This document shows positions 5,002-28,825 of a stretch of DNA of 64,000 nucleotides, piece after piece; position 1 is the stretch's first letter; each line of letters starts with the position of its first letter. The position numbers and the translations under genes were made by a program. The stretch comes from Entoloma clypeatum. Taxonomy: Eukaryota > Basidiomycota > Agaricomycetes > Agaricales > Entolomataceae. The notes under the pieces are model-generated. The model made no database searches. It was given only the letters and a program-made list of their open reading frames with translations, and had not been told where the DNA came from. Where the stretch lies: contig OY751494.1 of NCBI GenBank assembly GCA_963565915.1, positions 1,116,001-1,180,000 on the forward strand, in the 5' to 3' direction.

Positions 5002-8000
5002 ATGCTTCCAGCTTCGCAGATGCCGCAGTCTTTGAGTAATTCCCCGGAAATGACAGCAGCACAACGACTGTATGCAAGTGCCATTAATGAAGGTGCTGTC
5101 AGTTCGTCAGTTTCAGCTCCTACCGCACCCATCGCCTATCCTACCGCTGCTGCCCGCCACGCCGACCAGCCAACCCCTACCAATGCACCTGCCCGCAGAG
5201 ACACATCTTACGGTCTACCACAACCAGCTTCTGGATCGTACTATTTGAACAGCGCCACATTAAGTAGCGGGAGCGTTATTAGTCCTTTCGCAATGCCTCA
5301 ACTTCTAGCGCGGGATCAGTCTTCCGTTTTGCGTTTGGCAGCCGAACCCATGCCTGCTGCTACCAGTCTTGCACCTCAATACAGGCGTCATGGCCGATCA
5401 ATCAATTCAGCTGTCCGAGGTCCACGTCCCAGGAAAAAGACAACACCTTCAGCAACTTCTATTACTGGATCTCCCTCACAAGTACATCATCATCAAATAC
5501 CTCAGACGGCGCGCAGTTACAAGCCTTCGCCACAGTCCCCGTCTCACGACGCACCACTACCTGCCGCTCTGCAGTTGGAATATAGAGCTCAGGTTCTGCA
5601 ATATTCATCCATATCTAATCTTTCATTACAAACACAGCCAACAGTGCGGAGCTCTAGGGATGCCGCTCTACAGCCACAACCTTCTGTGAGAGGGTCAGGG
5701 TCTGCAAGTTCATCTCGAACTCTGCCTCCCCCTCCCTACATACCATCGGACGGTCCCATCCTTCCTCCAGAAAAGTCATCTACGCAAACCGCTGGTTCAG
5801 CTCCACAGCCAACAACTCCCACGAGAGGGTCAATACCTCACCATGACGCCCGAAAGCTTCCTCCGCCGTACATATTATTCGAACCTACAAACACTACAAC
5901 TCATCCACCAGTTTCCACGGGAGGGTCTCCAGCTCGCCCCCGACCCCTTCCCCCACCTCCGTACATACCACCTGAAGCCACTCCGTTCCCTCCAGAAATG
6001 TTATCCACGTACACACCGTACCGCGTGCAACCGCGGTCATCATTTCAACACCCGCCGTTGGGTTTGGATCTAGGTGCAAAGGACAGTCCTTCTAGCTCAC
6101 GAGTCACACAAACGCCTCCATCGCAGAGGCCACTGGACGACCCGAACACCCTACCAGTACCACCCCGCCACCCGTACGGGGCGGCTACACTGCCATCATA
6201 TCAATTCGCTCCTCAACCCGCGCCTTTCTCGATGCCTAAGTCGACGGAAACTCAGAAATCTGTCATATCTGCACAGAGTCAGCAACCTGTGCTGAAAAGT
6301 TTACATGGCAGTGCAGACGCACCCTCTATAGATATTGAAGGCAGGAAATTTCTATCAAACAAGGAGTGGCATCAATCTGCTCGATGCATAACTGCTGATC
6401 GCGCACTTTCTCACGTCTCCAGCCTGGAACCGTCGCTTGTGAAGGCATTGGGTCAGCTTCAATATTACGGCTTTTATAGACTGCAGGTCGGCTTCAACGA
6501 AGTGATGCTCAAGGAAGGTCTCCAGGTAGAGGAGATCTATCTCACTCTAAGTGACGATTTCCCGGCGCTGTCGGAAGAAGACGTGTGTTCCGCGTTTGAT
6601 CCCGTTTTGGCGCCATTCCCAGGCATACTTTATACCCCCAGCCAAGTGTACCATATACGAATCGACGATCTGTCGCCGGCTCTCTCTCTATCAAAGAATA
6701 ATTGGACAGACACTCCACAGGTAGACTCAAACGGCAGCCCCGGGGATGACGGGGGCGGTGAGAAAACAAAGGATAGTGGCGAATCTGGACATGCGAAAGA
6801 CTACAGAGCACAGAAAGACAAAGAGAACGGTGGTGGCGATGGCGGTGGCGGTGGCGGAGGAGGGGAGGGAGGCAGCGGAGGTGGAGGTGGAGGCGGAGGC
6901 GGAGGCGGAGGCGGCGGAGGAAGTGGCGGACCTGACAAGTCCAACCACCAGATGGGACGCCGAGTCCTGAACATACCAGGTTTCGGTTCCACTCTGACAA
7001 TCAAGGGACCAAATGGATCCCATCAAGTCAATGCTATGGGTGGTCTTGATATCATAGTGAGTAATGGAAATCGTGTAGACCCTTCTCAAATGATTCAACA
7101 ATCTAGATCGATAGAAACTATCAGTCCAAGTCCCCTCCTTCCGGTACAAGATGGTCTGGTCCCTGGTTCGAGGTTGACCTAACTAACCTGGAGGTTAACT
7201 CGATTTTCGTTGACCAGCCAACATACTTGGTCTCTTTTGCTCAAATCCGTATAACTGCAACTTCAAACTCCACTCCAACTTCTTTGATATATACCCCGAC
7301 CACAACACCTTTCGCAACTGACACAGCAAAAGCAACAACTGGGAGAAGTAGAGTATTCAGTGTCGGGGGGACTATGAGCATGAACCCTGGAGGGCAAGTA
7401 AGCGCCGCTTGGGGCGAAACCTCTGGTTTAGAAACCATCTACAACCGATGGGCGATCATTACTGGAGCGACCATGACATCTGCCGAAGGGAAGGGATCAC
7501 ATAATATATTCTGGAGATATACCCATAATGACGCTGTCTTCAAGACCGATCGCCTTCAGAAGTGGAGCTATAACCGTACACTCCTTCCTTCTGCGATTTA
7601 CGCATTCAGCCGATTCGAGCCAGTGCCTGTAGTGGAAGCGGAAGTAATGGTGTTCTGGTCGAAGGACTCCCAGGCACACAACATCAGAAAACGAGGGTTC
7701 TTCCCTTTACGCAAGGCAGCCTTGGAGGAGAAAAAATCGCCCGTTTTCCGGAATTTTATCTACCAGGTTGCAGTGAAGGTGAACCTGGACAATATAAAAG
7801 ATGAATTTTCGAACATTATCGTGGGGGACATGGCCGATACTTCGACATGGGGTGAGCTTCATGCGGCCTCTGTGGATAGGGGAGGGGCAATACACCTTGA
7901 ACCAGTCAAAAGAACTGCTGAAAAGGATTCTGATCACGACCCCAACAGTGGTGTGCTCACGGATTGCCACGTTTTCATCCATCGAGCAATTGAAGGAAGA

Positions 8001-8270
8001 GTTTCGCTGACGGATACAGAGCGAGAGGGTAGGAAAATTCACATTCACGTCGCATGCCCCACTTATCATTGGTTCATTATAGGCACTGTACCGATAAAGC
8101 TACGACCACGTCGTTTAACGCTGTCACTGTCAGGAGCTGCTGTACCTGCAAGTTTACCGACGCCTTCACCTTCACCACAGCCTCTGCGAGACCAAGTTCT
8201 TGATACAAATCCAAGGAATACCGCTTCGAAGTTCAAGCTCACCCGACACATAGGGAAGTATTTTGGTTGA
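5002..8270 (+). CDS. YTHNDA-module protein P1, proline-rich N-terminus
   Basis: Protein of unknown function and first of three local paralogues. Exons 5002-7056, 7107-8028 and 8083-8270 give 1054 residues. Residues 1 to about 455 are low-complexity and rich in P, S, Q and T, with three PPPY (PY) motifs near 5737, 5860 and 5953 inside imperfect repeats. The shared module starts near residue 460 with RCITADRALSHVSS and includes QVGFNEVMLKEGLQVEEIY and FPGILYTPS. A long glycine run (about 6831-6930) follows, then GRRVLNIPGFGSTLTIKG, the splice to IDRNYQSKSPP, the SGPWFEV block, FWRYTHNDAVF and EAEVMVFWS. The C-terminus ends in a Pro/Ser tail. I see no signal peptide or membrane span, so an intracellular protein is likely. 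The first intron was fixed by matching both paralogues. An extra upstream exon (an ATG at 4799) cannot be excluded. I do not recognise the module. Confidence 0.78.
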
Positions 8271-8689
8271 ATGATGAGTTTCTTGAATGTCCACTTCGTC
8301 AAGGAACTCCGGGGAATTAACCCAGCGCCGAGCAGAAACCCCATGAAATATCAACTGACGAAGGATATTCAAGGGCCAGCCCGATGCAAGTCCATTGCCC
8401 GCCATTCCGCAAGACGGAGGTCAAAATACATGGAAGCTGGACCTGGCGGGCGGAAGCAGCTGTCACGGTGGCGAAGCGACAGCATTGGGTACTAGCGAGG
8501 AACAAGTCTCTTGTCGGATGGCGACCACAACGGCGGCGGTGAAGCCTGAGGATGTTTGGTGGGTTGATGATATTTGATGTGGAATTACGGTGGAATGGGA
8601 ATGTTGACGCCCTGATCAATGTTTGTTCCTTTCTCTCCTTACTTCTCGTGCACAACGCGAGGTGCACCACCAGGAGCTCCATTTGTCAA

Positions 8690-9245
8690 CCATCTATGGC
8701 TCTGTAATTGCGCCAGACCATCGTTATCATGCATCAATTCGTGTAGGGCCCCCGCGAGGTCTGCCGACTCGGATGGGGGAGAATCAGATGCCGCGCCCCG
8801 GAGTTATACTCTTAACGATCCTTCCCACATCTGGAGCTGAATGCCTTCAGAGGTAGACCTTTGGAAAGACCATTGGTTAAGACTTCCTGCCATATTCCTC
8901 GTTCGGGTTCCGTCGACTCGAAGTGCAGATTTAATGGTATGTATTCTAGTTAACAGGTTCCAAAGGAAGTAATGCAGATCGACGAGGATTTGTCCCCTTC
9001 CGCCATGGAACAGCAACAAAGGATAACAAGCCACCCGTTTTTTCATTCACCAGGTTGCAATCGTAGACGTGAACGACATCAAAGACACAAAGTCATCCGT
9101 TATCGCAACATTGCTGACTGTGCTACGTTCTCTGCGGCCGCACCAGCAAACGAGGGAACTGTCTTTTTCCAAATTTATTTACCAGTGGCAATCGTGTTGG
9201 ATGTGAATGACATCGGAGACAGTCAGACAGACCCTGCAGCTACGG
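8690..9245 (+). pseudogene. decayed YTHNDA-module fragment
   Basis: Remnant of a paralogue lying between the two intact tandem genes. Its DNA closely follows the second gene (12640-13090): blocks such as catggaacagc(...)aaggataac, acgaacgacatcaaagac-type text and ttctctgcggccgcacc recur in the same order, with frameshifts, deletions and stops between them. Only the part of the module from about the WxYTHNDA region to the FSAAAPANEG region survives. The segment around 9170-9235 (TTTACCAGTGGCAATCGTG onward) repeats the VAI(V)VDVNDI region a second time, so the copy also contains an internal duplication. No start, no splice-compatible reading frame and no N-terminal domain remain. It shows the family has been duplicating locally. 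Confidence 0.75.
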
Positions 9246-10330
9246 TGATTGGCTTCTATCAGCATGAATGAATTAAAAACTAGATCACAATACGGATGCC
9301 ATGACATTGATATGTCTTTTCTATCCTCTTTCTATAGACGGGACGGCGTAGCATGGGGGGGTTACTCGAAATTTTTGGAGTCTCCGCCATTCGTGCGACA
9401 CAGAACGATGTTGCCGAGTACAGAACATACACTGAAAGCATTGACGAAAACGTATACATCTGATAATTGAGACAAAATTAAGACAGTCCACCGAGCGTGA
9501 TCGAGAAGGCGAAGAGCAAACGAAACTGTACTGCCAGTCTATCATAATACTGATAGCGCAGTCCTATTCTTCCCACATTGAACGCTGGTTGGTTGCGAGC
9601 CCCTGCACTTGCCCTACACGACTCTCAGCATACCAACGCCTCAACTTGAACGAAAGAAGCCCTAGCATCACGGCTTAGCGGATTTTCTGTGGAACTCACA
9701 ATCGCATGAACCAAACACTTCCACAATACGATTAGATGACTCGGAAGAAATGAGTCGTCCGACATACCCTGGCCATGGTACCATCTCACAGTGAGTATTC
9801 TGAGGGTAATAACAACACTCACGGTTGGGTTTGCTTCGGGGTGTTTCACCAAGTGCATAAGTAGGTATTTTGTCATCAACTTGATTCCATCAACGTTAAC
9901 GTCTCCCTTTAACAATAGACTGCGGCTGCAGTGGCACGGTGACGGCCGCTGCACTGCGTGGACAGCCTCCAATGCATCGCAGAGTAGCTCCTTGATGAAT
10001 CTACAGTATCGATCAATTGGTCTGGGATTCATGAATTCTTGAACTATCTTGAAGCACATTCTCTTGAACTGGGTGCGACGCATGCATATGGGTCAAAAGT
10101 AGGCCTTTCCTCAGAATTCTTCCAGGAACTCCTTTGGCGAAAACGGATGTATACAAGTCACGTTTAGCTGTCAATCTGTGGCATTGTACTACAGATGCAC
10201 TGCCCTGCGCGCCTAAGTTTGGGACATACTTAATCTGGGAGGCGGCGCATGTATTCTAAGCCTGCTCCACCTTTCCCCTACATCTTCGCCGACTTGGAGC
10301 CCATTTGGCTTCCGCCGTTCCAATCCGCTG
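9246..10330. other. intergenic, no gene recognised
   Basis: About 1.1 kb between the decayed copy and the zinc-finger paralogue. A 152-residue ATG-initiated reading frame exists on the minus strand (9625-10083). It has no recognisable motif, its composition does not stand out, and I saw no clear splice signals around it. I treat it as chance or a relic. The end of the region should contain the promoter of the zinc-finger gene. Confidence 0.4.
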
Positions 10331-13300
10331 ATGTATGCCCCGGCCAAGTATGGCTCCCATCTCGACGACCCCTACATAAACAAGATACACATCCACCCTC
10401 CCTCCCCTGAACCCCTCTCTCGCCATTCCACGCCAGATTACGACTATTCTCCGTATTCTTCCCATTCCAATCTCTCGTTCGATGACAGTCACGTGCTCGA
10501 AGGTTTCGCTGAAGCCTCAAACTTTCAAGGTCCCAGTCAGTCATTGCTCATGGTCGATGACCTGACTACCAATCCCTACAATCATTATCGTTCGTCTTCC
10601 CCATCGGCGTCCCATTCTTCGCGCTCTCCGTCACCTTCAGATTCTTTGGCCACAGCACCTAGTCGTTCCCCGTCCGCTTCCCCTCAACCAGACTACGTAC
10701 CTCTGTCCTATCGGGCGCGAAGCAGATCTGACACTGCTCTGGATCTACCGGATTGGGATATTGCAGGTGGCCAGCAACTCTGGAGGAATGATGCGCGTCG
10801 CCTTACTGTAGGCGTGGACGACTCTGAACGACCGCTTAAAGTCGATTTTGGTCCAGATGGTCAACCGCCCAAGGCGGCTGTATCAAAGCGTAAAGTCACG
10901 ACTGATCAGCCAATTGATACTTCGGGAAAGCGGAGAAAGAAAGGGACCTCTTTTGGTTGTCCTCTCTGCGGAGTTGCATTCACAACAAGTTTCTCGCTCG
11001 CGAGTGCGGTCTTCCTGATTGTTACGATCGATACCGTCTCATTGACTTCTTCTTATTCAGATCACGTCCGTGCACACGACGGAGGGAAACCGTTTCGGTG
11101 TCAATGGCCTGGCTGTGGCAAAACCTTTGCCAATTATTCCAACTGTAAATACCACGAACAAGTGCATGTGGCCCTGCATTGTGGCGCCTGCGACAGGTCC
11201 TTCCTCAATAAGGATAACCTGAATCGACACTGTACGTTCGACTGTCGCTCTTCTTCCTTGTATGTGGTTTCCTCAACTGATGTTAATCACTGGTTAGTAT
11301 TGAACTTCCATGCCGAACTTCCAGGAACCAACACAATTCGTCGCCATTCCAACCCCGCAATGCGTACCATATCATCTTCGCCTGCTCCCACATCCCAATT
11401 CATGAATGGCTTGAACATATTCCCGTCATCGACAAAGATTTCCAGCCACCAAGCGCAAATTCAGCCAGTGGGTGGACAGCGAATTCGAGGTAGAGATAGG
11501 GGCAAGGAGAAAGAGAGAAGTCACCAGCACGGGACGCATAGGAGCCAGAGCACTGGGACGACCTTTGTCGGGGGCAACCAAACAGCATTAAGCACTGTGC
11601 CATCGCATCAATCAATTCGATGTATCACAGCTGACAATGCTTTCTCTCATGCGTCCGCCATGGAACCCTCACTTCTGGAGGCACTGGGTCGCCTTCAATA
11701 TGATGGTCTGTATCAAATCCAGGTCGGTTTCAACGAAGTGATGATAGAGGAAGGCCTCCTGGTGCAAGAAATCTACATCTCCCTGGATGCCGACATGCAT
11801 ATGCCTGGTCAGGAAGTGTGCAGTGTGTTCGAGGCCGCTTTGACTCCCTTCCCAGGCATAGTCTATACACCAAGCGAAACCTACCATATACCGATTGACA
11901 GTTCCTTGTCGGCTACTTCCTCAAATACAGAATCTACCTGGGCGCGCGTTGATGGCCAAAGTGGCAATGACGCAGACAGCAGGGGGGGAGAAGACCTCAA
12001 TGACGGCAATGGGGAGGGTGGAGGAAGAAAAGACGGTGATGAAAGCGGTAGCAAGGGTGACGGAAGCAGAGAAGACAACGACAACAGCGATGAGCGTAGG
12101 GGGGGAAAGGGCCAACCAACTGGGCAGGCAGGACGCCGTGTGCTCAACATTCCACGCTTCGGTTCGAAGTTGACAATCAGCGGAGAGGATGACTCGCATC
12201 AGGTCGAAGTTGCTGGTGGCCTGGATATCACCGTGGGTGCCAAAAAAATGATTGAGGCTCATCTGGTGACTTACGTTACGGTGCTGATTTATAGGTTGAT
12301 GAAAACTTCAGAGGAGAATCCTGTCCTGAGGGTTCGGAATGGTCTGGTCCATGGTTCAACGTTGGCATGACCAACTTGAGGGTCGACTCGAATTTCAAGA
12401 GCCAGCCGACGTATACATTTTCTCTCGTTCAAGTCCGAATCAAAGCCAAGGGTAAGTCTCAATGTGTCGTGGGGTTGAGTGAGACGCAGACACCAACGAG
12501 TTCGACTTTTGCGGCTGATACTGCAATCGTGAGAAGGGAGAGAGTTCATCAATTCGGTTTCGCCGCTGTGTTGGGCACGAGTCCCGCGGCTCGCCTGAGT
12601 GGATGGTGGGGCAGCATATCGGGTCGGGAAGACGTCGAAAGGCGATGGGCAATCAACACTCATAGCACCATGAGCTCCGCTGATGGAGAAGAATCAGAGG
12701 ACGTGTCCTGGAGTTATACCCATAACGATGCTCATCCGACATTCGGAGCTGAACGCCCTCAGAAGTGGACCTTCGATCGGGGCTTCCTCCCGTCTTCTTC
12801 GTTCGGATTCAGTCGACGCGAAGCGGCACCTATCGTGGAGGCAGATCTCATGGTCTTCTGGTCGACCGATTCCAAAGCAAGCCATGCGGATCGACGAGGA
12901 TTCGTCCCCTTTCGCCATGGAACAGCGGCGAAGGATAACAAGCCACCCGTTTTTGCGAATTTCATTCACCAGGTGGCAATCGTAGTGGACGTGAACGACA
13001 TCAAAGACACAAAGTCATCCGTTATCGTAGGCGACATTGCTGATCGTGCTACGTTCTCTGCGGCCGCACCTGCAAATGAGGGAGCTGTCCACTTTGGACC
13101 ACCCATTAGAAGGACCGCCGAAACCCATTCCAACACCGATCTCGGTCGCGGGTCGCGTACCAATTGCCATGTTCTCGTCCGTCGCGCGATTGAAGGAAGA
13201 GCGTCCTTGACTGACGCGGAAAGGAAAGGTGAGTAGAACGCAATGCTATATATTCTACATTAAACAATTGATTTGAACTTTTTACTTAGGATTATCACGA

Positions 13301-13462
13301 CTGGAATTGTCGTCTCCGACACCTGTATGGGGTTCGGCAACTGTTTTAGGTTTGCCGACGCCGTCAGTGACACCGATATCTTTTTCGCTTGGTCCTGCAC
13401 ATCTCGGAGAAAACAATTTGACTTCGATCGCCAACGCAGACCCTCTTTCGCAAGTAGAATGA
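10331..13462 (+). CDS. YTHNDA-module protein P2, C2H2 zinc-finger N-terminus
   Basis: Second paralogue. Exons 10331-11003, 11061-11231, 11298-12232, 12295-13228 and 13290-13462 give 961 residues. Residues 1-205 are Ser/Pro-rich with a basic KRRKK cluster that could be a nuclear localisation signal. Three C2H2 fingers follow. The first is CPLCGVAF...LANHVRAH, completed only by removing intron 11004-11060. The second is CQWPGCGKTF...HEQVH. The third is CGACDRSF...HLLNFH, which needs intron 11232-11297. The shared module begins near residue 389 (RCITADNAFSHASAMEP). Its hinge is rich in Gly, Asp, Glu, Ser and Lys rather than pure glycine. The module then continues with RRVLNIPRFGSKLTISG, WSGPWFNVGM, SYTHNDAHPTF and EADLMVFWS. 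The fingers suggest DNA binding in the nucleus, which is an inference. The gene lies in tandem with P1, with a decayed copy between. Confidence 0.8.
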
Positions 13463-13563
13463 GATTGGAGGGTATGCCGATCCCGAGTTTGTCGTCAAAT
13501 CCTGGTCTCTTTGGGACGTGTTCCTCCAAATCTTCTCTCTCGATTTCCTCGTATTTCCTGATG

Positions 13564-13685
13564 CCACTTTGATGCCCTGATTATGATCCCATACGTTCTG
13601 TTTACAGCGTTGGCATGACTTCCTTATTCCACTTTTGATACCCCAGTTATGATCTCATACGTTCTGTTGACAGCATTCTTTATTA
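13564..13685. repeat. two-copy tandem repeat, period about 65 bp
   Basis: Two imperfect copies, starting near 13564 and 13629, share CCACTTT-GAT, TTATGATC-CATACG and TTCTGTT-ACAGC text. They lie just after the stop codon of the zinc-finger paralogue. No coding potential is apparent. They may be part of its 3' UTR or a small local duplication. Confidence 0.6.
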
Positions 13686-13833
13686 CGAACATTTGACAGG
13701 ATTCACTGCACAGCTATGACGCCAGAAAGAATCGGTAGCACATCCGCTGATGCATTTGATCGATTGTTATTATTTTCTACGGACTACTAAATAGTTCATT
13801 CAATGATATTTGAACCGAGACGATGAGCGCTTG

Positions 13834-13872: not shown

Positions 13873-13926
13873 ATCATCATAAATACCTACGCGGAAGGTC
13901 ACTGATGAACTACAAGCCGACTGCCA

Positions 13927-15335
13927 TTATGCTAGAGTGGGTAATACCCCCTCAGTAAAGGCATCCTCAATATCATCATCCGCCGTCGAATCTATGTCCA
14001 ATCCTGGAAAACCAGATCCCACACTGCTATCTGAGTTCCGCCTCCAAGTCCTTGCGTGCTGCTTGAAATCGCTGAGGAGCTGATGTCTGATAGATTTCAT
14101 AAAGGCTGGACGGATTTCCCTGTCGAGCTCAGGAAGACTCGGCCCAAACCATCCAGGGTAAACCTTCCCGTGACAACCTTTGGTAGCGATCTGCTGATTC
14201 CTGATGTCGTTGTAGGTCTTTATGTAGTGACTGCACATAACGCAGGAAAGCTTCGAGACACCGATGTAGGGTATGACGTGGTTGATTTCGCCTTTGACAA
14301 TCGCCATAATCATAGCTAGTTCTACGTGGACGTTGGGTTTCCAGCGAACCACCTCCGAAGGCTCCAGCTCCTTCTGAAGCCGCTCTCGGAACGACTTGCG
14401 GTCCTCCTCCCATGCCACAGAAAGATGGGGTGTTCCGGTTAGGGCGGCATCTAAAGCCATTCTTATGGTTTCTGAAGACAGGTTGCAGCGATACGGAGTA
14501 GTCGCTGGCGTGGCGAGGACTTGAACTGAGAATTTCCCTTCCAAAATTTTGCGGAGGCGGCGTGACTGAGTCAGCATAAAAAGCCTATTGGCCGAGATCA
14601 CGAACGACATAATCTTCATCGCCCAACGCCGAAGTTGAAAACCTATGCGATGATCTTAAATACATAGAACGATATGGATTTCGGCCGGGGTGAAATTCAT
14701 TTAGGTGTCGGATCACGTACTGTCAGCCAGCCAGGCATCTGCGTCGTCAAGCAATGTAACCTTATGGTCGGCAGGGGAGTCTTCGGGAAGAAGGTTGCGT
14801 TGCGTCCAGTTCGAATAGATCTTTTGAAGCATTTTTAGATTGGCAGTGGAAAGCAGTTTCGTGGCCTGTGCGTTGGCGACGGTCTTGAGAATGAGGTCCA
14901 CATGCCGAAGGAACGACAGCAACGTGGAACGATCCTCGGGCTTGAAGTGCGTCCGATCCTGCTCGATGTACCTATGTATGGCCGAAAAATTGCTCTCGCG
15001 CTTCGTCACGCGATACGCGAAAATCTCGAATGAAAAGTTGTGAATGGCGCGGCTAACCTCGATGAGGTTGGGCTCAAGCTCTTTCCCAATGATCTTCTGG
15101 GAGTGATCACTTGAATGAGATTTGTAAGGGACTTGGCGAAGCATCGTAAAGATAGACTGTAGGTGTTGAGGACAACAACGAGCCCCGTCATCGTCTTTGT
15201 GGTTGAAAACGACATACAATTGCGTCGCTAGGGTGCCTTCGGCTTCATTCAGGCGGGCCACCGTAGCAGAGATGTCTCCTCGTCGAAAAAGTGAGATATC
15301 GGCGACTACATTGAGAAGGGTCTGCAGTCGCCGGG
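13927..15335 (-). CDS. deaminase-like protein, OTT_1508-like family
   Basis: Reads right to left. An upstream exon (15335-14721) encodes LLNVVADISLFRRGD and ARLNEAEGTLATQLYVVFN. It joins across intron 14720-14643 to an exon reading RRWAMKIMSFVISANRL, which ends at 13927. The signature is a zinc-deaminase pair: VHVELAM (His-x-Glu) near 14320 and LSCVMCSHY (Cys-x2-Cys) near 14235, with a helical segment between. This matches the fungal OTT_1508-like deaminase family, which is described as related to polymorphic-toxin deaminases and expanded in mushrooms. Substrate and role are unknown. The 5' end is unresolved: the frame is closed by a stop just upstream, and related-looking sequence (YYTELLRATSRHANRRLL) sits in another frame at 15341-15488. 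A further intron or a frameshift is therefore possible. Confidence 0.68.
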
Positions 15336-17542: not shown

Positions 17543-20500
17543 CTATTGTGACCAATTAAAAATGTCGAAATCGACGGGTATCGAACTGTCCACGATCGGA
17601 CTCGTATTTTGAGGTTGCTGAGGCCCAGGCGTCCCGGACATATGCCGCATCCCCTGCATGCCCAAGTCCGTCTGGTGCCCTGGCCCAGGAGACGGCGACG
17701 CGAACGGATACCCTCCTCCCTGCGACTGCGGAGACCATCCCTGCCCACCACCACCACCACCCAACGGCGACGGCGCCCCGCTATACGCACTCCCAGGCGG
17801 CGACATCCCATACGACCCCGCCCCTCCCTGCTGCTGTCCCGGCTGCTGCCACGACGCCATAGGCGACCCCATCTGCTGATGCTGCCCCTGCACACCATGC
17901 GGCGGACTCTGCGCAGCCAGCGCCCGCTGCGCATGCACCATCCGCGCATAGTCCTCCTTCCCCATCGTCGTCATCGACCCCCCGCGTGACGGCGGCGGCC
18001 TCGGCGTTATCGGGCTCCCTCCCGTTGGACCATCCGACGGCGAGCGCGCGCTCCTCGCAATCCCCGGTATCGCACCCACCGCACCTCCTCCACCAGGAGG
18101 CACACCCATCCCCATCCCCATCCTCTGCTGCTGTTCCCTCATCCGTTCCTGTTGCTGCTGTTCCCTCATCCGTTCCTGCTGCTGCTGCTCCCTCATCCGT
18201 TCTTGTTGCTGCTGTTCCCTCATCCGCTCCTGCTGATGCTGCTGCTGCTGCTGTTGTTGTTGTTGTTGTTGCTGAGCATACGCCATCTGCTGCTGCTGCT
18301 GGTTCATCATCATTGCATTCATCCCCTGCCCCTGCCCTTGCCCCTGCCCCTGCCCCTGCCCGCCAGTAAGCCGCGCCTGCTGCATCATCATCAGCTGCTG
18401 CCTCTGCACCGCAGAAAGGCTGTTGAGGTTTATCCCGGGCGGGAGCATCCGTGGGTCCAGTCCGCCGCCGCTGCCGCCTCCTCCTGGTCCTCCTCCCACA
18501 GCACCGCCGCTCTGACCGAGATTCGGTGCGTCCAGCCCGAAAAGGTTGTGTTGTTGGTGCTGCGACATGGGCGAATGCGGTGGGACAGGCGACGTGGGGT
18601 TCGCGTTCGCGAACGGTCCCTGTTGCTTGAGGCCCAGGTTTGAATTTTGGTTCTGGTTCGACATGCCATGATGTGGAGACATCTGCTGTTGCATCTGATT
18701 ACGCTGAAACATCTGCTGTTGAGGATTCTGTTGCTGAGGATGTTGTTGCTGGGGGTGCTGTTGCTGTTCTTGGTGTTGTTGCTGCTGTTGCTGTTGCCGC
18801 AGATGACTCTGTTGAAATGTTAACAATCAGCGGTAGACACAAGGTCCGAAAGAAGCCTTCACCTGTGCGATCAACATCTTCTGCATCTGCTGCGGCACCG
18901 TGAGCCCCGAGAAACCAGGCACCATCCGCGTCATGTATTGCAAGAACGGATGTCCCGGTGACTGCAGTATATTCAACAGCTGCTGCTGCAGATGCGCATT
19001 CGACGGAGGCCCTCCACTTCCCGCACCACCACCACCACCACCGTTACCACCTCCCATACCAACTCCTCCTGGTCCCATCCCAGACGCACCAGCCATACCA
19101 AGGTTCGAAGGCCCAGCAGCTGCATTCACATTCATCCCATTTACTCCAACTCCCATAGGATTCATGTTCCCCCCACCACCCATCATCATACCCTGCTGCG
19201 GCTGCTGCATCTGCTGAGGCTGTCTCTGCTGCTGCTGCTGCTGCATCCCACCCGCCCCCATCCCCATCCCCACGCCCATCCCACCCGGAGGCGACATCTG
19301 CCTCACCGCAGCGGCCTGCGCAGCCCGTATCTGCGCCTGCCGCGCCCGATCCCGGTTGGACGCTGCCAGCTGCGCCTCGGCCGTGTTCCCGATCACGCCG
19401 GGGTTGAGCCCCGCGATCTGAGCTTCTGAGAGGTGGGGTGACGGGTGGGGCATGGGTTGCGGCTGGGGCTGGAATTGAGTGTGATGCGGGTTGGTTGGGG
19501 GAGAAGGCGCGGAAGAGGAGGAGAGAAGGAGGGGGTTGGAGGTTGGGCTTGTGTGGATGGTTGTAGGTGTGAGATTGGCGTGGGCGGTGATAGTAGCAGG
19601 ACCGTTGGTGAGGCTGTCGTTGGTCATCGACAAGGAGAATTGTGAGGGTGATGGTGTGAGCATGGGGTTTGCGATGGAACTGGGATTGATCGCTGGCGAC
19701 GAGAGTGTAGACATGGAATGGTTGTTACCCATTGGCATGGGTATTGACGATGGAGGGGGCATGGAAGAGGCGGACGGCGGTCTGTTGTTGTCGCCTGTGT
19801 TTCGCCGCTTCATTGACATGCCGAAGTCCTCGTCGGGTCTGTCGCGTTTTAGTGTCGCGGGGAAGGGTGAGTGGTTTATCGGGTTCGGCATGGAAGGCTG
19901 CAGGGAGGCGGCGATACTCATTTGATGCCGCCGAGCGATCTCTTTGGCGAAAATGGAGGGGAGCTCAGAGTATATTTGCTGAATGCGTTCCACGGGGTGG
20001 AAGTCGACAGGTGGGGGAGGATCCATTACTGGAAGGCTCACCTAAGGGAATGATAAGTGGATGGGATATAAAAAGAATGGAGTAACACACTCCACGATTC
20101 TGATCGACTGCAGCAGCCATCCATGCAAGGTTTGATTGTAGACGGTGAGCGTATCTGAAGCCACGGGTTCATAAGATTAAGCAAGGAAACGGACAGGAGG
20201 GGTAGCGACTGACTGCTGGAACCTTGGTTCTGATGTCGTCGTGAATCCCCTGTTTTGAAATTCCATGCACACTCTGATGAAAATGAACACGTTAGGAAAG
20301 CATAATTGACACGCTGGGTGACTGACTTTAATAGTTCCGTGTTCAACTCCAGCATCAATACTACCTTTGAGTCATTTGCGTGAGAAGGTGACGAAGGGGC
20401 GGTTGCCGATGTAGGTGTTGCAGGTGAGTTGATCGATGTGGAAAGACTCGGGGGAGAATGCTGGCGATACAAGGAAGATGACGACGAATAAGTCATGAGA

Positions 20501-21174
20501 TTTGAAGCGGAATTATTGGCTGGATTCAAATCAAGCTTGGTTCTGGGATCCGCTCGACCTGCAGCCTCCGTGGAAGGCTTCTGGCGAACTGGTGAGGGAG
20601 TTGTTCTGGTGCGAGGATCGCCGCCCGAGCTTGTTTTCCCATGCAACCCATCTGGTGGAGTGTGTTCGACCTTTGGGTACACCGGCCGCGTGACTTGTTT
20701 GTCGTCTGCCTTGGGAGCCTCGTGCCGGTCCTCCTGATCGGGGGACGGGGAAAGCTCGCTCAAGGGTGTAGAGAGACGCGAAGCGGAGTCGACTTTGGGT
20801 TCTTCCTCTTCCTCCTCCTCCTGCCTGTGCGGGGACTGGATGGGTGCCTCCTTCTCCTCTGCATTGGGTGGGGGTGGTGGCGAGTCGACGAGAGAGCCAG
20901 TCTCGGGTGCGGGGGACAGCGAAGAGCTCCTGTCCCGTGTTGGGGACGCGGAGTTTCCGTCAGCAGGGCTTGACGGGGACGAAGCATGGGAGGCGATGGG
21001 GTCGTGCGGGCCGGTGGGTGTCGCTGGGCCGGGGAGGGACCTTGTGTGAGGGTGGTGGTGGAGGTCGGGGCGGACGGCGTCGAGGGGAGCGAGGTAGTGG
21101 TCCTGGATGTCTGACCATATGATTTTGTGGTCGTTGATTAGATTCTGCTTCGGATTTCGATCGATATGAAGCAT
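17543..21174 (-). CDS. Q-rich SSXT/SS18-like protein, probable SWI/SNF subunit
   Basis: Exons 21174-20327, 20273-20214, 20154-20091, 20041-18863 and 18808-17543 join in frame to about 1138 residues from the first ATG. The start is uncertain because the frame stays open upstream to 21327. After an acidic, Ser/Pro-rich N-terminus, the three junctions build LELNTELLKVCMEFQNRG, then HRLQSNLAWMAAAVDQNR and PPPPVDFHPVERIQQIY. The first two pieces resemble the SSXT N-terminal region of SS18/SYT (N-x-LL...eYQnkG...RNLiyLAtiAD), a known SWI/SNF-binding domain. The remainder is rich in Q, N, P, M and G: a nine-residue QQQQERMRE repeat (about 18125-18235), long CAG/CAA tracts, a GQ run and a C-terminus ending VDFDIFNWSQ. 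A nuclear chromatin-remodelling or activator role is inferred. It is divergent from the uL2 gene. Confidence 0.62.
18125..18270 (-). repeat. coding minisatellite and polyglutamine tract
   Basis: On the minus strand a 27-bp unit encoding QQQQERMRE is repeated about four times, next to a long run of CAA/CAG codons. On the plus strand it reads as CTGCTGCTG blocks separated by TTCCCTCATCCGTTC. The unit lies inside the Q-rich SSXT-like gene and is expected to vary in copy number between strains. Confidence 0.8.
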
Positions 21175-22055
21175 GTTACAGCCCAGCCAAGAGACGGTGG
21201 CAACGCTGACGGGTGAAAAGATGGTTGTGTTTGGGGGGTGCGCAGCAGCCGAGTCGATCCGCTGATGCAGTCCTCCGTGCTCGTCGTCGTGCTCGTGCTC
21301 GCGCTCAACGTTCGTCCCGACGAGCAATCAGCCTGTGTCCAACGCTGGGGCAGGGCGCACTTGAGGCAATGGGGGGATTGGGGCGTGTGACAGCGGAGTC
21401 TCAATAAGGCGTCTGTGCCCACTACTGACACCCGTCTCCACGCCATTGCCGACGACGAGCTCGAGGGGGAGTGCAGCACGTCCTGGACGGATGCAGCCCT
21501 GCCAACGAGCTCGTCCAAGCTCCGCTTCCGTTTCCTTCGCTATCACCCTTTGTGCTTCCCGCTTGCCGCGAATCACACACCATTACATCCCACCCATCAC
21601 CGAATGTATTCCCTTAGCCACCGTTTTGGATCTACCATCATCCCATGATTGTCACTCAAATTCCCTTTCTCCTGACCAGTCTAGCACCAAAAACGTACAA
21701 TAATCGTTCCTGTCTGCCTTATCTGTGAAATTGATATCCATCTGGTACCACCGACCCTGACTCAAAGTATTATTACATAATCATTGTTTGTCCTTTGTTG
21801 ACATCCCACCCAAAGTCGTCTCGAGATCATCACCAAAGCGCTCCTCAAGACACCTGCATGTGAGTATATGCCAAAATCTACCTCGTCTCCACCCCAACAC
21901 ACCGTATAACGCCCCCGTAAAAGAAAACGGCGTCGAAAACCGTCCACTTTTGGTTGGATGCACGGCGGTGCCATCGGATGTGCCCATTCCACCTCTTCCC
22001 AGAATCATCCAACGCCGAACGCTTTCTAACACATTTTTCTTCTTTAGAATTCACA

Positions 22056-23052
22056 ATGGGTCGGGTAATTAGGGCACAACGACGATCGCACGCTATCGTA
22101 TGTCTCCTACATAATTCATTACAATTCACGCAGCTCATAACCTTATCCAGTTCAAGGCGCACACCCACCACAACAAAGCTCCTGCCCGCCTCCGCAATCT
22201 CGACTTTGCAGAAAGCAATGGTTATGTCCGTGGTATCGTAAAGGAGATCATCCACGACTCTGGCCGGTAAGTGATCATTCTTATAATTCCAAATAGAAAA
22301 TCTTAGGTCAATCCACCAGCGGCGCTCCCCTTGCCCGCGTCGTCTTTCGCGACCCCTACCGCTACAAACTCCGCCAAGAAACCTTCATAGCCACCGAAGG
22401 CCTACACACCGGCGCCTTTGTCTACTGTGGCAAAAAAGCAACTCTCACCGTTGGTAACGTCCTCCCCGTCGGCCAGTGCCCCGAAGGAACGATCATCTGC
22501 AACGTCGAGGAGAAGATCGGCGACCGTGGCGCACTCGCGCGGACATCGGGCAACTATGCGACGATTATTGGCCACCAGCCCGACGAGGGCAAGACCCGCA
22601 TCCGTCTGCCGAGTGGGTCGAAGAAGACCATTGTGAGCGGGGCTAGGGCGACGATCGGTATCGTGGCGGGTGGAGGAAGGATCGACAAGCCACTGTTGAA
22701 GGCTGGGAGGGCATATCACAAGTACAAGGCCAAGCGTTACAAGTACGTCTTTGTTTTGCAGTGTGATCAGTGTGTTGACGATTCACTTTTTTTTGCAGCT
22801 GGCCCCGTACTCGTGGTGTGGCTATGAACCCCGTCGACCATCCTCACGGTGGTGGTAACCATCAACACATCGGCAAGGCATCGACAATCGCCCGCTCTGC
22901 TGTTCCTGGACAGAAAGTCGGTCTTATTGCTGCTCGCAGGGTATGTTCTTTTCCCCCCCTATGTCATGCTAGTCGATCGGCACTTACTCTTCCCTCTCCC
23001 CCTTGTACAGACTGGTCTTCTTCGTGGTACCGTCAAGGTCAAGGAGGTTTAG
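22056..23052 (+). CDS. RPL2: 60S ribosomal protein uL2 (L2/L8)
   Basis: Large-subunit ribosomal protein at the peptidyl-transferase core. Exons 22056-22097, 22151-22266, 22320-22742, 22799-22940 and 23011-23052 give 254 residues, the same length as the yeast protein. It begins [10 protein letters not shown]. Conserved stretches include [37 protein letters not shown] and the [15 protein letters not shown] loop, whose histidine is the one modified and functionally important in this family. It ends [12 protein letters not shown]. The ATG lies 9 bp after an intron acceptor (tctttag), so the leader probably contains a 5' UTR intron, as is common for ribosomal protein genes. An AATAAA lies at 23333. 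Confidence 0.97.
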
Positions 23053-23663
23053 ATTTGCTGCATCCTCATGTTGCGCCTTGGAAGCTCTATTACTTTTTTT
23101 ACACATGACCAGATCACAAAAAGCCTCTCCATTGTATGCAGCCTACGTTATGCATATGCCCTGTCACGACCGCTCCATGAGGTTCAATTGCAATGTCAAA
23201 GTCCTTTCGACAAGGTGTTATAATTTTTGCTGTTTATTGCTGTGCCATGCATATGGTATATTATCATTTCGAGTTGTTTGTTGTTCGCTGATGAAAAAGG
23301 TGCGACGATTTCGGAACTGTTGATTTTAGATCAATAAAACAGGACATGGGACAAAAATTCAATACACTTCACGACCTCCATTGGCCTACAGGCGCTTCAA
23401 GATACGGGTTAGCGCGCGCTCCAGGTTTACCGTCCATGCAATTGCAATGACGCCAGGTCCCATACAAACAAAACAAGTCTATTCACGTCAAGGTCAAATT
23501 CATTAAGAATCTTTCTTTTTCTCTCTTACGTTTTACACTGCCTTCGTTAAATTTTCTGCTCGGCTCAGTCAGAAGATCTGCATGCCTGGACATGTACAAT
23601 GTACGTCCGGCACGAGTATTTAACCTTTCATCCTTGTCTTCGTTCCAAGATCGATAACAGACC

Positions 23664-25226
23664 ATGACGCCCGAGGAAATTCAGTTCTGGAGTTCCAAGG
23701 GCCGCTCGCTGCTGTTCAGCTTCCTGTTCCATGCCATGGACTGTCTCTTTTATGGTGCGTGAGATGGACAAAGTCTCCGAATTCCTGGTAAACATAAACG
23801 TTGGATAACGATTCTCTTATTCCGGATCTGCAGGCATCCACGTCCTGCTTTTTGCTCTGTCGACCTCGATCGTGATAGACAAGGGCTTCGCGACGAAGAA
23901 GGTCCCGTTCATCGTGACGCTTGTCAGCTTTGTGAGCGCGACAATGGAGATCTCGACGCGGTGGTCGTCGTTGATGATCCGCGTGCAAGTGCCGTTTGTG
24001 AAAAACGCTGGTTTGTCGGTGGGGGAGATCGTTGCGGCTGCGGGCGTATCGACGATCGCGCCGGACATCATGCGGAATTGGTTCACGGCCTTTCAGGTGA
24101 GCTTTTCGCGAGCTACTTGAGGTATGATGCTTTGGATTAATGGTTTGCTGACGCCGTGCTTGTTGGGGATATGTGTAGCCGGTCATCAATGACGGGATCG
24201 TCATCTGGAGAGCCTGGGTTGTTTTACGTCTTCCCCAAAACCGCGGAAAGTGGACTATAGCTCTTTCTGTTGCGATGTGGCTCGGGACGACAGGTTGGTT
24301 TTCAGGGCCGTTTTGTTTTTCTCTCCGAGTCTGGGCTCATGATTTCTCTTTTTTTTTCTTTTCTATTTAGTCTCCGTGTTGGGATATTGCATATTGACTT
24401 CGAATCCCGTCGGTTTGGAGTCGGTAAATTTGAATGGGACCATCAACAGTTTATATGCAGCAGCGAGTGGGCTGTCGTTCGCAACGAATGCTGTTGCTAC
24501 GTCTTTGATCGCGCACGCCCTTTGGTATGCACCTCTGTCACCTGTGATTATCACCTTACTTACTTGTGTTGAATGAATCGTTCCTATGACAGGAGACATC
24601 GGAAGGACGGCAGCGCTTCTCCGAGTCTCCCCTTGAAGAGCAAAAATCTCCCACCGGCCCAGAAGGCTGTCTTTCTCTTCGTGGAGTCTGGAGTCATGTA
24701 TTGCCTGCTTCAGGTGAGTTGTATGATCGCTTTGGATAGTCTATGAGGTCTTGATGTCGTTCGCTGTTGCAGCTCGTTCTCTTTTGCATAAGCTGGGCCC
24801 CAGCTCACCTCTTCGAATCTCTGGCGTTCTTATTGTTCTTTCGCGTGATAGGATCGCTCTATATCGTCGTCTCCGTGAGTTCTCTCTGCTTCCATTTCTT
24901 TCCAACTGAAGAATGCTGATCATGATTGTTCGATTTAGTTTATGTACCCGGTGGTTGTGATGCTCCTGGTTTATACACAGCGCTCGATGGTAGATGTGTA
25001 TGTGTTTAGCTCTGTGCTCGGTGCTGAGAGCAGGTTGCTGGATCCAGCGCGGGGCAGATTGGGTTTGCGGCACCGGTGCCTTCGGTTCGTGACGCAAATG
25101 TGGAGATCGGAGGGGAACGGGAGGGTTACCGGGAGCCAGAAACACGTAGAGGATAAGGCTAGTGTTAAAGGTGATCCGGATGAACGCGCAGTCAGTTCTG
25201 GGGATGTCGAAGTCGTACCCCTCTGA
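23664..25226 (+). CDS. seven-transmembrane protein of a basidiomycete-expanded type
   Basis: Exons 23664-23754, 23834-24096, 24179-24293, 24371-24524, 24593-24713, 24773-24874 and 24939-25226 give 377 residues. Hydrophobic segments recur throughout: SLLFSFLFHAMDCLFYGIHV, VPFIVTLVSFVSATMEI, ALSVAMWLGTTVSVLGYCIL, LIAHALW, VESGVMYCLLQLVLFCISW, LAFLLFFRVIGSLYIVV and FMYPVVVMLLVY. About seven membrane helices are expected, with an extracellular N-terminus and a soluble C-tail ending DVEVVPL. The layout, including the INDGIVIWRAWVV segment before a helix, matches the large family of uncharacterised receptor-like 7TM proteins of mushrooms. Ligand and coupling are unknown. A poly(A) signal AATAAA sits at 25276, about 50 bp past the stop. 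The gene converges on the pseudokinase paralogue. Confidence 0.8.
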
Positions 25227-25563
25227 TAGATAGGGCGAAGAGGCATTTGATGAAATGCTCTGATCAAGAATGTAAAATAAAGTACTGTCCTGATTGTAAT
25301 AATTTTGTTGTAATCGTTTATCTCGGAACCATCGATATTTCAGTCGAGGCGGATCTGAGTCTGTTTGTCTTTGGGAATCTGAGGGAATTTCGCAACAGTC
25401 GTGGTGTTGTTATAACCGCAATTCGCCAGTGGTAACATACAGGGTCCTGAGTCGTGACACGGACGAAGGTATAAGATATGTGGCAGAGAGGGGTATAAGT
25501 CATGAAGAAGCAACCGGGAGTGCCCTGGGCGTGGCGCAGAAGGAATTCAGTGAGGCAACTGGA

Positions 25564-25757
25564 TCAACGGCCTCGGTTCCGCACCCACGGGAACTTGACC
25601 CCCAAATTCTCACTTTTCTGGGGATCCGGACTGCAAACCCTTACTTGGTCATCTGGAGATGGCGAAGGCGAAGGGGTCGGCAGCGACATAGCTTCTGTCG
25701 GTGTGGGAGTTAGCAAGCGTAAAGTTAAAGGTGATATGCCTAGGGGGATAATGAGCA
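25564..25757 (-). pseudogene. detached C-terminal tail of the P3 paralogue
   Basis: On the minus strand this stretch reads LPTPSPSPSPDDQVRVCSPD, which aligns with the C-terminal tail of P1 (LPTPSPSPQPLRDQV). In P3 the main frame stops at 25771, just before it. An acceptor (ccccctag) is present, but none of the GT donors I tried joins it in the phase used by P1 and P2 without either a stop or an intron below 40 bp. The tail is either lost from the protein or reached by a splice I could not identify. Confidence 0.5.
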
Positions 25758-25770
25758 TTGATTCAACTCC

Positions 25771-28700
25771 TCACGAAATGACTCTGACTCTCATCTCTTC
25801 CTCCGTCAAAGTTGCTCTTCCTTCGATTGCCCTACCGATGATAACCTGACATCCAGCGGGTATGGTGCCCGAGCTGACGTCCGAATGCTTTTCAGCAGTT
25901 CTTTTGACTGGGGCGAGGTAAATGGTTCCTTTCGCAGAGGAGGCTGGAGATAGCTCATCCTGCGTACAAGCATCAGCGGTATCTGCCACCATGACCCAAG
26001 CATGATTGTCCTTAAGGTCGTTTAGATCCACTTTGACTGAGACCTGGTAGATGAAGTTGGCAAAAATCGGTGGCACCTGTTTATCGCGGAATAAAGGGAG
26101 GAATCCTCGTTGTCTCGCAGGACGTGCCCCAGATTCCTCTGACCAGAACACCATAAGCTCCATTTCCAAAAGAGGGGCACGACTGAAGCCATATAAGGCA
26201 GAAGGCAGCAGCTCATTACCAAAGTTCCATTCTTGAAGGCGTTCGGAATTAAATGCAGCATCGTTATGGGTGTATCTCCAAAAAATTGTCTCTGATTCTT
26301 CTCCCTCGCTGGAATTCATGACCGTTTGGGAGATGACTGCCCACCGCCTCTGGTTGTTTTCCACTGTGGACGTTGAACCCCAGGACACGCCCGCCTGGCC
26401 CGCAGGATTCATGCCGAACGTCCCTCCAACATTCAAAAGTTTGCTTTTACCTGCTGACGTCTTCGCAGCATCAGTTGCGAAAGGTGAGGTGGTCGGTGTA
26501 CGTCTCAAGGACTTGGGCTTCGGGTTTGATGATGCGGTCACTCGAACTTGAACAAAAGAGAACAGGTACGTCGTTTTATCAACGAATATCGAGTTAACCT
26601 CCAGGTTGGTCATGACAACTTCGAACCAAGGGCCAGACCATCTTGAACCAAGGGGAGGGGATTTGGCCCGATGGTTGCGATCGACCTACACAAGTACGCC
26701 ATTAGGGCAATGAATCTTCCATCCGTATCATTGTTTACTCACAATAATATCAAGACCACCTATGGCGTTGACTTGGTGGGAGCCATCTGGCCCCTTGATC
26801 GTCAGAGTGGAACCAAAGCCTGGAATGTTGAGGATTCGGCGCCCTTCTTGGTGGTTGTGATTGTCGCCCCCACCGGTCCCGCCCCCACCTCCGCCGCCTC
26901 CGCCTCCACCTCCACTGCCGCCGCCACCACTACCGCCACCGCCACTGTCACCCTCGTTTCTTTTTCGTTCCTCTTCTCGCTTCCCATCGCGACTATCGCC
27001 CCCCTCTTTCTCGCCGTCTTTGTCATTTCTGTCGCCACTGCTTGAGCCCATTTGGAGAGCATCCGCCTGACCATGCATCTGAGAAAGAACATGAGATCCA
27101 CGTTCCCGAGTATCTGGTTCCTTTGAATCCTTTGACTGTGAGATAGCCAAAGACAAATTGCCTATCGCTATGTCATAGGTTCGACTAGGGGTATAAACCA
27201 CGCCGGGAAATGGTGCAAAAATGGCCATAAATGTTGTATGCACATTCGAGGCGGCTAATCCCTCGGAAACATCATCCAGAGTGACATATATTTCCTCCAC
27301 CTGAAGTCCTTCCTCGAGCATTACTTCATTAAAGCCGACTTGAATCCTGTATCGACCATCGTAACGGAGCCCGATCAATGCTTTCAGAAGTAGGGGTTCC
27401 ATGGTGGAGACATGAAGGAGAGCACGATCGGCGGAGATGCATCGAGCGAATGGCTGCTGTGACAGAACTTCGCCCGGCTCTGTTGACACGAGTTCGGTGG
27501 CCCTCTTGTCTGAAGTAGAATGCGCTAGTAACATGGGCATAGAAATCAACACCGTGATGACAAAAAGGGATAGACCCACTCACGACTCTCGTTCGCCAAT
27601 GACGTGGCATTGATATCTTCAAATGTGGATCCAGTGTTTTGGTGTTCGAGTTGGTTGAGGATTTGTGTCATAGAGGGTCTCTCCGTCGGAGCCTGATGCC
27701 AACAACATTCTAACAATCTCCACTGCTGTTGCGTTATATTCCGATATTTGTCTTGACGTGGCCTGCGCCCATGTATAATGGCAAAGTATAGACGTAATAC
27801 GCTAAAGGATGTATTTGTCGGAATATCGTTGAATGGCATCGAACGGTCGATATTTCCGTCGATGTCGCGGCCATGAAGGACCTGAGGATCATTGTAATCA
27901 GGCTATTGTCTGATCATTTCCAATGATGATATGTTACCTGAAGCATCAGCATCGCGAAACTGTAGACGTCGCTCTTGAATGTTGGCCGAATCGCACCTTC
28001 GACGAATAGCTCGGGGGCGAAACTTCGAGTATTCGTATTCCATGGCGATTCGGGCGTCCCAAAACCAGTTATCTTTGCGTGTCCATCGGCAGAGACGCGT
28101 ACATTGTCCTGTTACTCGTTAAAAACATCGAGGTGGTGCAGGGTGCTTCAGGAATAATACTAACAGGTGTGAGATTGCCTTGGATTAACATTTGCGCGTG
28201 GAAGTGCTGAACGCCCAAGGCTGTTTCATAAATCTGAAAGGATTCGTGAGCATGTCGGTGTGGGCAAAATCAGGGTAAGCCCTACGATTCTCAGCTTCGC
28301 ATCCGGGTTCTGAGAAGTGTACTCCATGAGGTCGTGTTCTATGAACAAGGACACTATCCCGAGCGAGGTATCATGCCCGAAATAACCGTCGTATGTCAAG
28401 CCAAAACAATGCGCGATGTTCTTGTGATTCAATCGTCTCCAAAGGAAAACTTCGCGGACAACGCGCTGAGCGTACCGTTAATCAACATGGCGGGGTGGTA
28501 GGAAGAACGAGCGTACTTTCTTCAGTGGGTTGTTGCGCACGACCTTGACGGCTACCTGAGGGTTGCTTGAGTTGAGTCGTCGCCGTGTGTGGAGAGAAGG
28601 TGTATGCTACCCGGCAGTTGTTCGGATAACCTTCAAAGACATCATGTCTCGAACTAATGACAATAGGCCATGGTGCAGTTCCTGTGATTTTAGACGTGAT

Positions 28701-28825
28701 CTCCTGCAAGGACAATCAGTCATACATCAGCAGTAGATAGCATAACCACGCACCGAACGTTTCCTGGCACGCTCCTGGTCGATCAGGTCTACGACGATAT
28801 CGCGGAAGCTAGGTCCGTTGCGCAT
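25771..28825 (-). CDS. YTHNDA-module protein P3, pseudokinase N-terminus
   Basis: Third paralogue, inverted. Exons 28825-28754, 28703-28611, 28555-28517, 28465-28286, 28233-28165, 28108-27938, 27881-27584, 27524-26743 and 26685-25771 give 872 residues. Residues 1 to about 300 form a tyrosine-kinase-like fold: the strand-3 lysine (VAVKVV), the helix-C glutamate (REVFLWRRLNHKNI), an APE-like SFAPELF, KSDVYSFAMLMLQ and CWHQAPTERPSM. The catalytic loop reads LIQGNLTPDNV, with Asn for the HRD/HGD aspartate, and the DFG motif reads ITGFGTP. Catalysis is therefore doubtful and a pseudokinase likely. The intron 27583-27525 joins the kinase to PHSTSDKRATEL and the shared module (RCISADRALLHVSTMEP). 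A glycine/serine hinge, RRILNIPGFGSTLTIKG, SGPWFEVVMTNLEV, FWRYTHNDAAF and MELMVFWSEE follow. The frame stops before the Pro/Ser tail seen in P1. Confidence 0.8.

Follow-up and report, generated by a model that had tools for sequence, protein, structure and literature searches.

Genes in Entoloma clypeatum that join exchanged N-terminal regulator domains to a module with a leukocidin-like predicted fold

The 64-kb stretch of Entoloma clypeatum DNA analysed here (the window) carries three genes, 1 and 2 on the forward strand and 3 on the reverse, whose proteins share one C-terminal module and differ in the part that precedes it. A preliminary description of this DNA had proposed that the three are real fusions of a PPPY-rich disordered region, three C2H2 fingers or a pseudokinase to a module for which it had no name, and all three genes were recovered where it had placed them (Table 1). 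The modules of genes 1 and 2 are 58% and 47% identical to that of gene 3, far above chance, and Pfam scans of module members named no family for it. The module consists of two conserved parts joined by a Gly/Asp/Lys-rich linker of variable length. Part A (~100 residues, RCI.AD to.LS) contains helices and strands in the structure model, and part B (~335 residues, GRR(V/I)LNIP to IEGR) is mostly beta in both structure models. An intron interrupts all three genes at an identical codon boundary, directly after GGLDI(I/T); in P0003 and P0004, two proteins from outside this genome, it is apparently unspliced and read through.

Gene models were predicted by splicing at GT-AG sites on genomic DNA, the exon 2 donor of gene 3 and the third-finger acceptor of gene 2 being picked among alternatives for frame or finger completion. 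When spliced in this way, each of the three genes keeps a single frame across the N-terminal part and the module, and every one of the eight introns in gene 3 has GT-AG borders. Since the disordered part of gene 1 and its module as far as GGLDII share one open frame of 744 residues, that fusion is independent of any splice call. The joint is likewise open in one frame in a bZIP fusion on C8 and in P0003 and P0004, so the fusions cannot all be annotation artefacts. The C-terminus of gene 3 is shorter, a stop being reached where gene 1 splices on to another exon.

The three N-terminal parts were as proposed. That of gene 1 contains three PPPY motifs and no Pfam domain, and beyond itself it has a single weak match in its own genome (expect value (E) 2.2e-4, 34%). 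In gene 2, three complete C2H2 fingers were seen by eye after removal of two introns, two of them passing Pfam singly (zf-C2H2, 6.8e-10), and this region, fingers and disordered part alike, resembles a free C2H2 gene on C9 (36–40%). Gene 3 begins with a Pfam Pkinase domain (1.1e-17) in which the catalytic loop reads QGNLTPDN and GFG replaces DFG, so that the catalytic Asp and the DFG Asp are both lost and the domain is a pseudokinase. It matches free kinases on C14 and C9 at 53–61% identity, with a ratio of non-synonymous to synonymous substitution rates (dN/dS) of 0.16–0.18 over 190–194 codons; among themselves, the free kinases are 56–60% identical, with dN/dS 0.11 for one pair and saturation in the other two. 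DFG is kept in all three free kinases and HGDLKP in two (frames read). Judged from these ratios, the gene 3 pseudokinase has lost its catalytic residues yet retains its fold under selection. By eye, gene 3 and the free kinases seem to have introns in common after 'AKL..', before 'DNVRV' and after 'LQ', which fits capture by copying of DNA rather than mRNA.

Table 1. Coordinates of the genes and module features in the window, and of module loci elsewhere in the genome.
Feature	Position	Strand	Basis or remarks
Gene 1 (1054 residues)	5002-8270; exons 5002-7056, 7107-8028, 8083-8270	+	
Gene 1 N-terminal region, disordered, Pro/Ser-rich	5002-6381	+	spliced model; motif scan; no Pfam domain
Gene 1 PPPY motifs (n=3)	5725-5754, 5860-5883, 5950-5979	+	motif scan
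Gene 1 module part A (RCITAD to LSPALS)	6382-6687	+	alignment
Gene 1 variable Gly/Asp/Lys-rich linker between parts A and B	6688-6954	+	alignment
Gene 1 module part B, leukocidin-like predicted fold	6955-8028 (exons to 7056 and 7107-8028)	+	alignment, structure model
Gene 1 candidate membrane hairpin (pre-stem) within part B	7344-7451	+	composition; low-confidence loop at matching place in P0003 model
Gene 1 last exon, Ser/Pro-rich tail	8083-8270	+	spliced model
Decayed, frame-broken copy of part of the gene 2 module	8769-9221	+	blastn, tblastn pieces
Gene 2 (961 residues)	10331-13462; exons 10331-11003, 11061-11231, 11298-12232, 12295-13228, 13290-13462	+	
Gene 2 N-terminal region with three C2H2 fingers	10331-11617	+	spliced model, Pfam
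Gene 2 fingers	10958-11077, 11099-11167, 11180-11311 (including introns 11004-11060 and 11232-11297)	+	
Gene 2 module part A	11618-11923	+	alignment
Gene 2 module part B	12131-13228 (exons to 12232 and 12295-13228); candidate hairpin 12535-12648	+	alignment
Gene 2 last exon	13290-13462	+	spliced model
Gene 3 (867 residues, nine exons)	28825 to 25771	-	
Gene 3 pseudokinase (7 exons)	27584-28825	-	alignment, Pfam
Gene 3 pseudokinase exons	28825-28754, 28703-28611, 28555-28517, 28465-28286, 28233-28165, 28108-27938, 27881-27584	-	
Gene 3 module part A	27139-27444	-	alignment
Gene 3 module part B	25789-26844 (exons 26844-26743, 26685-25789); candidate hairpin 26448-26341	-	alignment
Second half of module only (part B)	C13:1077474 (L023)		~43 kb before gene 1; beside Ty3/gypsy-like retroelement pol frames by eye
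Module copy, disordered N-terminus	C6:1281422		no Pfam match; linker frame change would require an unproven intron
Module copy, degenerate C2H2	C14:1906991		no Pfam match; 42% over 64 residues to gene 2 fingers
Module copy, four tandem Zn2Cys6-like clusters	C14:2662990 (L020)		all six Cys in three of them by eye; two stretches recognised as Zn_clus by Pfam
Module copy, bZIP N-terminus	C8:372542 (L021)		
Module copy, kinase-like	C14:2323921 (L022)		YGDLTSDH and DFY when spliced by eye: Asp kept, other residues changed
Divergent part B (24%, E 9.8e-4)	C9:2847806		no N-terminal domain seen

Searches of the genome (60 Mb, 20 contigs) with parts B and A identified 10 module loci, nine of them with part A. 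The exchange of N-termini on a fixed module that had been proposed from three genes was borne out and is wider than first seen, extending to bZIP, Zn2Cys6 and a second kinase. In the degenerate C2H2 copy on C14, finger 2 lacks one Cys and finger 3 is unrecognisable by eye. Tandem Zn2Cys6 clusters, as in another C14 copy, are unusual. Within the kinase part of the C14 kinase copy, a unit of ~120 bases is tandemly repeated by eye (L022:4137-4379) and may break or alter the gene.

Outside this genome, three overlapping protein searches (10, 16 and 10 matches) returned at least 29 different proteins (P0001–P0029); the first and third scored only candidates sharing most words, and further relatives may exist. 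P0003 and P0004 join a Zn2Cys6 cluster to the module in one frame, with Zn_clus above the Pfam cut-off in both and in the tandem-cluster copy from C14. Zn_clus is their sole Pfam domain, and the fungal_trans domain, the usual though not universal companion in fungal Zn2Cys6 transcription factors, is not listed for either. P0003 is 57% identical to the tandem-cluster copy from the end of the N-terminal part through part A and the linker, and therefore at least the Zn2Cys6 fusion exists in another source. Pfam found no domain in seven further proteins scanned (P0005–P0010 and P0029). P0029 is a distant part A relative (E 9.9e-34) with a helical-looking N-terminus, perhaps of a kinase-associated type, that has no match in the Entoloma clypeatum genome.

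The bZIP fusion adjoins, in tandem, a free bZIP gene at C8:376196 (55% identity; region C8:371000-380000). Over 128 aligned codons the fused and free copies are 56% identical, with a synonymous divergence (dS) of 0.55 and dN/dS 0.63. Alignment of the fused copy with the donor extends to the final donor residues, after which the module follows, the fusion beginning at the donor's stop codon. Both share the basic-region stretch RRQNTVAARRSR unchanged, and the fused zipper has insertions. We take the captured factor to be Gcn4/Cpc1-like. As read from the two sequences, this pair is the capture step in view, and the free bZIP, C2H2 and kinase genes named here are likely donors of the captured N-termini. 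Copies of host proteins on a constant part were thus found, with donor candidates in the same genome for the bZIP, C2H2 and kinase classes.

A tree of part B was built from 26 rows, with P0024 and the half copy on C13 left out. The bZIP copy has the C14 kinase copy as its sister (support 100/99) within a clade (100/100) that includes the Zn2Cys6 copies, and gene 3, which carries a different kinase, falls outside it; gene 1 and the C6 copy, each with a disordered N-terminus, group with P0001 and its relatives (98/96). The placement of genes 2 and 3 and of the C2H2 copy on C14 is not resolved, and the branches of gene 2 and the C9 copy are long. On this tree, N-terminal type does not always track module descent. 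The bZIP capture looks younger, by dS, than the split of its module from the sister copy (0.55 versus ~1.5). For part B of nine copies (36 pairs, of which the 26 with a proportion of non-synonymous differences below 0.45 were listed), dN/dS was 0.08–0.34 in 24 pairs and undefined in two through synonymous saturation; the pairs lie near saturation, so these values are rough. Taken together, sequence comparison demonstrates the family, its predicted fusions, and selection maintaining the module and the pseudokinase fold.

By predicted fold, part B is likely to resemble the leukocidin/hemolysin beta-pore-forming proteins most closely. Flavivirus envelope matches in Foldseek had a probability of ≤0.05 and were taken as common beta topology, and a fold missing from the VIA lists was not counted as excluded. 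Composition was compared over 25 part B sequences, leaving out P0024, the half copy on C13 and L024. Windows of 33 columns starting at 72–79 are richest in Gly, Ser, Ala and Thr (0.50–0.54), and the window starting at 76 has the fewest charges (0.08); a stretch from column 80, preselected by eye, has 0.48 of these residues and 0.11 charges, versus 0.30 and 0.24 elsewhere. This candidate hairpin stretch (139–173) corresponds in the second model, that of P0003, to a low-confidence loop (135–169) ahead of a strand at 173–181. By simple and rough proportion along the 1lkf match it falls near residues 110–141, which we take to be about the pre-stem of that family.

The remnant between genes 1 and 2 matches the gene 2 module at 76.4% over 424 bases and 81.7% over 60 (blastn), and its presence there implies that the cluster turns over. 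A short direct repeat of ~58 bases (83% identity) lies just past gene 2 at 13555-13677, and the immediate neighbour of gene 2 is a gene with an OTT_1508-like deaminase domain at 13930-14655 on the reverse strand (PF14441, 2.5e-15). With two housekeeping genes nearby, ribosomal protein L2 at 22297-22827 and SERRATE/Ars2 at 30475-31158, both on the forward strand, the module cluster sits among conserved genes.

These observations can be brought together in one reading, to which we assign a probability of about 0.4 as a whole: a family built on one module whose N-terminus has repeatedly been replaced by the fungus's own regulators, giving a decoy-like bait on a leukocidin-like executor. Within the module, a flexible linker rich in Gly would connect part A, of alpha/beta type, to part B, which is all-beta with a predicted fold like that of leukocidin/alpha-hemolysin. 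The putatively captured N-termini are DNA-binding domains of the C2H2, Zn2Cys6 and bZIP classes and the domains of two kinases, one dead and the other with altered motifs. The protein probably remains inside the cell, because no signal peptide was seen by eye and the N-termini are of nuclear or kinase type. The captured domain may serve as a bait or switch, mimicking a regulator attacked by an invader, a parasite or an incompatible partner; its engagement would lift a restraint on part B, which could then oligomerise and insert its hairpin into a membrane, killing the cell. The further proposal that such decoy-gated leukocidin-like pores represent a novel class of receptors inside the cell, for immunity or for self/non-self recognition, that lacks NLR parts, the module being re-armed with the cell's own transcription factors and kinases as baits, is possible but doubtful.

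Degeneracy of captured domains (the dead kinase, the altered zipper, the lost ligands in one finger copy) fits baits better than working regulators. Several results weigh against the bait-and-pore reading. Confidence in the models is low to moderate (mean predicted local distance difference test 47.9 and 50.1; predicted template-modelling score 0.42 and 0.56), and Foldseek gave no match at E ≤0.001, with low template-modelling scores and large root-mean-square deviations. Leukocidins were not matched by sequence in Pfam or PDB: the Pfam Leukocidin profile was unlisted to E 10 for 3/3 and 11/11 members, HMMER filters discarding most matches above ~0.1, and a part B search of PDB gave a single match at E 0.92. 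Strand alternation in the hairpin, scored on the same set as composition, reached 1.77 in its best window, below the shuffled-column maximum (median 2.19, 95% 2.70), and the score was not accepted as evidence that a membrane hairpin exists. On the tree, the Zn2Cys6 and disordered types of N-terminus do track module descent. The fused bZIP match is under the Pfam cut-off (22.8 versus 27.6 bits) and its dN/dS is near relaxed, while the second kinase retains one catalytic Asp. The gene 2 fingers and three Zn2Cys6 clusters retain their ligands by eye, and with the bZIP basic region also well kept, these DNA-binding domains could be working parts.

This last point keeps alive a rival in which the proteins are ordinary regulators, the module being a beta-sandwich interaction or ligand-binding domain for transcription factors and a pseudokinase, and the leukocidin likeness reflecting shared beta topology with no pore being formed. 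Three unrelated DNA-binding classes on the module, an almost unaltered basic region in the bZIP copy, a Zn2Cys6 fusion kept between sources and the limited confidence of the structure models all agree with it. It is nevertheless on the unlikely side, given the zipper insertions, the ligands lost in one C2H2 copy by eye, a gene 3 kinase without catalytic residues and the lack of any Pfam domain other than Zn_clus in P0003 and P0004, and it leaves unexplained the charge-poor stretch rich in Gly, Ser, Ala and Thr near the expected pre-stem. Part B might instead be a cytoplasmic defence pore like the Coprinopsis cinerea protein P450139, freed when an animal eats the hypha, with the N-terminus tethering it to chromatin or masking it and so sparing the fungus itself. 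The DNA-binding classes among the N-termini would suit such an anti-predator toxin; tethering to DNA is not expected of pseudokinases and disordered regions, the finger and bZIP copies look altered, no lectin domain turned up in Pfam scans, and P450139 was set beside the module family by description only, making this explanation unlikely. Decaying chimeras, that is, duplication products of a rearranging region whose fusions have no selected function, would account for the broken copy between genes 1 and 2, the half copy beside retroelement frames on C13, the internal repeat in the C14 kinase fusion, the linker frame change with its unproven intron on C6, the shortened end of gene 3 and the dN/dS of the fused bZIP. 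This account is very unlikely, given that dN/dS is low both for part B and for the pseudokinase of gene 3, albeit with synonymous sites near saturation, that GT-AG borders are intact throughout gene 3 and that P0003 and P0004 have the same fusion.

Innate immunity and allorecognition are poorly known in basidiomycetes, for which a module with a predicted pore-forming fold and swapped host regulators provides named candidate genes. If the bait reading is true, the identity of the captured domain predicts the attacked pathway (bZIP, C2H2 factor or kinases), and the bZIP case, with its likely donor adjacent, displays the capture step itself. The predicted fold would also tie leukocidin-type folds in mushrooms to intracellular regulation, beyond feeding deterrence alone. 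No account of the module family appears among the titles and abstract openings listed for open-licence PMC literature on integrated decoys, domain shuffling in fungi, fungal proteins resembling leukocidins, and fusions.

The preliminary description had likened the family to fungal NLRs and suggested an intracellular sensor or scaffold. NLR membership in the strict sense is ruled out, as Pfam scans of window pieces, members and N-terminal parts contain no NACHT or NB-ARC; the sensor or scaffold role is narrowed, since the leukocidin-like fold predicted for part B suggests an executor. No C-terminal WD, TPR, ANK or LRR repeats were found in the module scans, and the sole repeat-type match, PPR_1 in the N-terminal piece of the C14 kinase copy, is under the cut-off (15.7 versus 23.8 bits). 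With fungal NLRs and HeLo/gasdermin executors, as described in two articles (PMC12881547, PMC9815663), the family shares domain swapping and a variable sensor joined to a part that would attack membranes, but Pfam scans of the module family contain no NACHT, NB-ARC, HeLo or gasdermin domain. The words 'leukocidin' and 'hemolysin' have no occurrence in the main text of the former, a 2025 review of fungal cell death, or of the latter, a 2022 survey of NLR effector domains.

Likeness to a characterised family of fixed architecture, which the preliminary description had held to tell against its view, was found at most for the fold and not for domain architecture. Bacterial leukocidins are secreted and are not known to carry such N-terminal regulator domains. 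The module family differs from the leukocidin/alpha-hemolysin family (which we take to be Pfam PF07968) in having no sequence match to it in Pfam or PDB and no secretion signal by eye, in its fusion to intracellular regulator domains and in its part A and long linker. A parallel in setting is P450139, described in the accessible portion of PMC6434838 as cytoplasmic, strongly induced and toxic to nematodes, with residues 110–185 likened to leukocidins by HHpred. Compared by description, both are basidiomycete proteins with leukocidin likeness, cytoplasmic in the case of P450139 and probably intracellular in that of the module family, although P450139 is reported there as a nematotoxin and no regulator fusion was noticed in that portion; by analogy, it suggests that leukocidin-like folds occur inside mushroom cells. 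CCTX1–3, beta-trefoil chimerolectins according to PMC13324453, were dropped as relatives.

MLKL fuses a pseudokinase to a membrane-killing domain, as the review of fungal cell death notes (PMC12881547), and gene 3 similarly joins a pseudokinase to a part predicted to be membrane-active, but the domain order is reversed and the MLKL executor is helical and unrelated. Plant NLRs with integrated decoys include WRKY, kinase and BED examples. As in those receptors (PMC5819176, available part), copies of host regulators and kinases are captured on a constant part and some captured domains are degenerate; unlike them, the module family has no nucleotide-binding domain that was found, the captured part is N-terminal and the constant part has a predicted beta-pore fold. 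The proposed arrangement would thus be an integrated-decoy receptor in which an intracellular leukocidin-like pore replaces the NLR. Its domain swapping likely resembles that of recognition families, without NLR parts, on a module that now has a predicted fold assignment.

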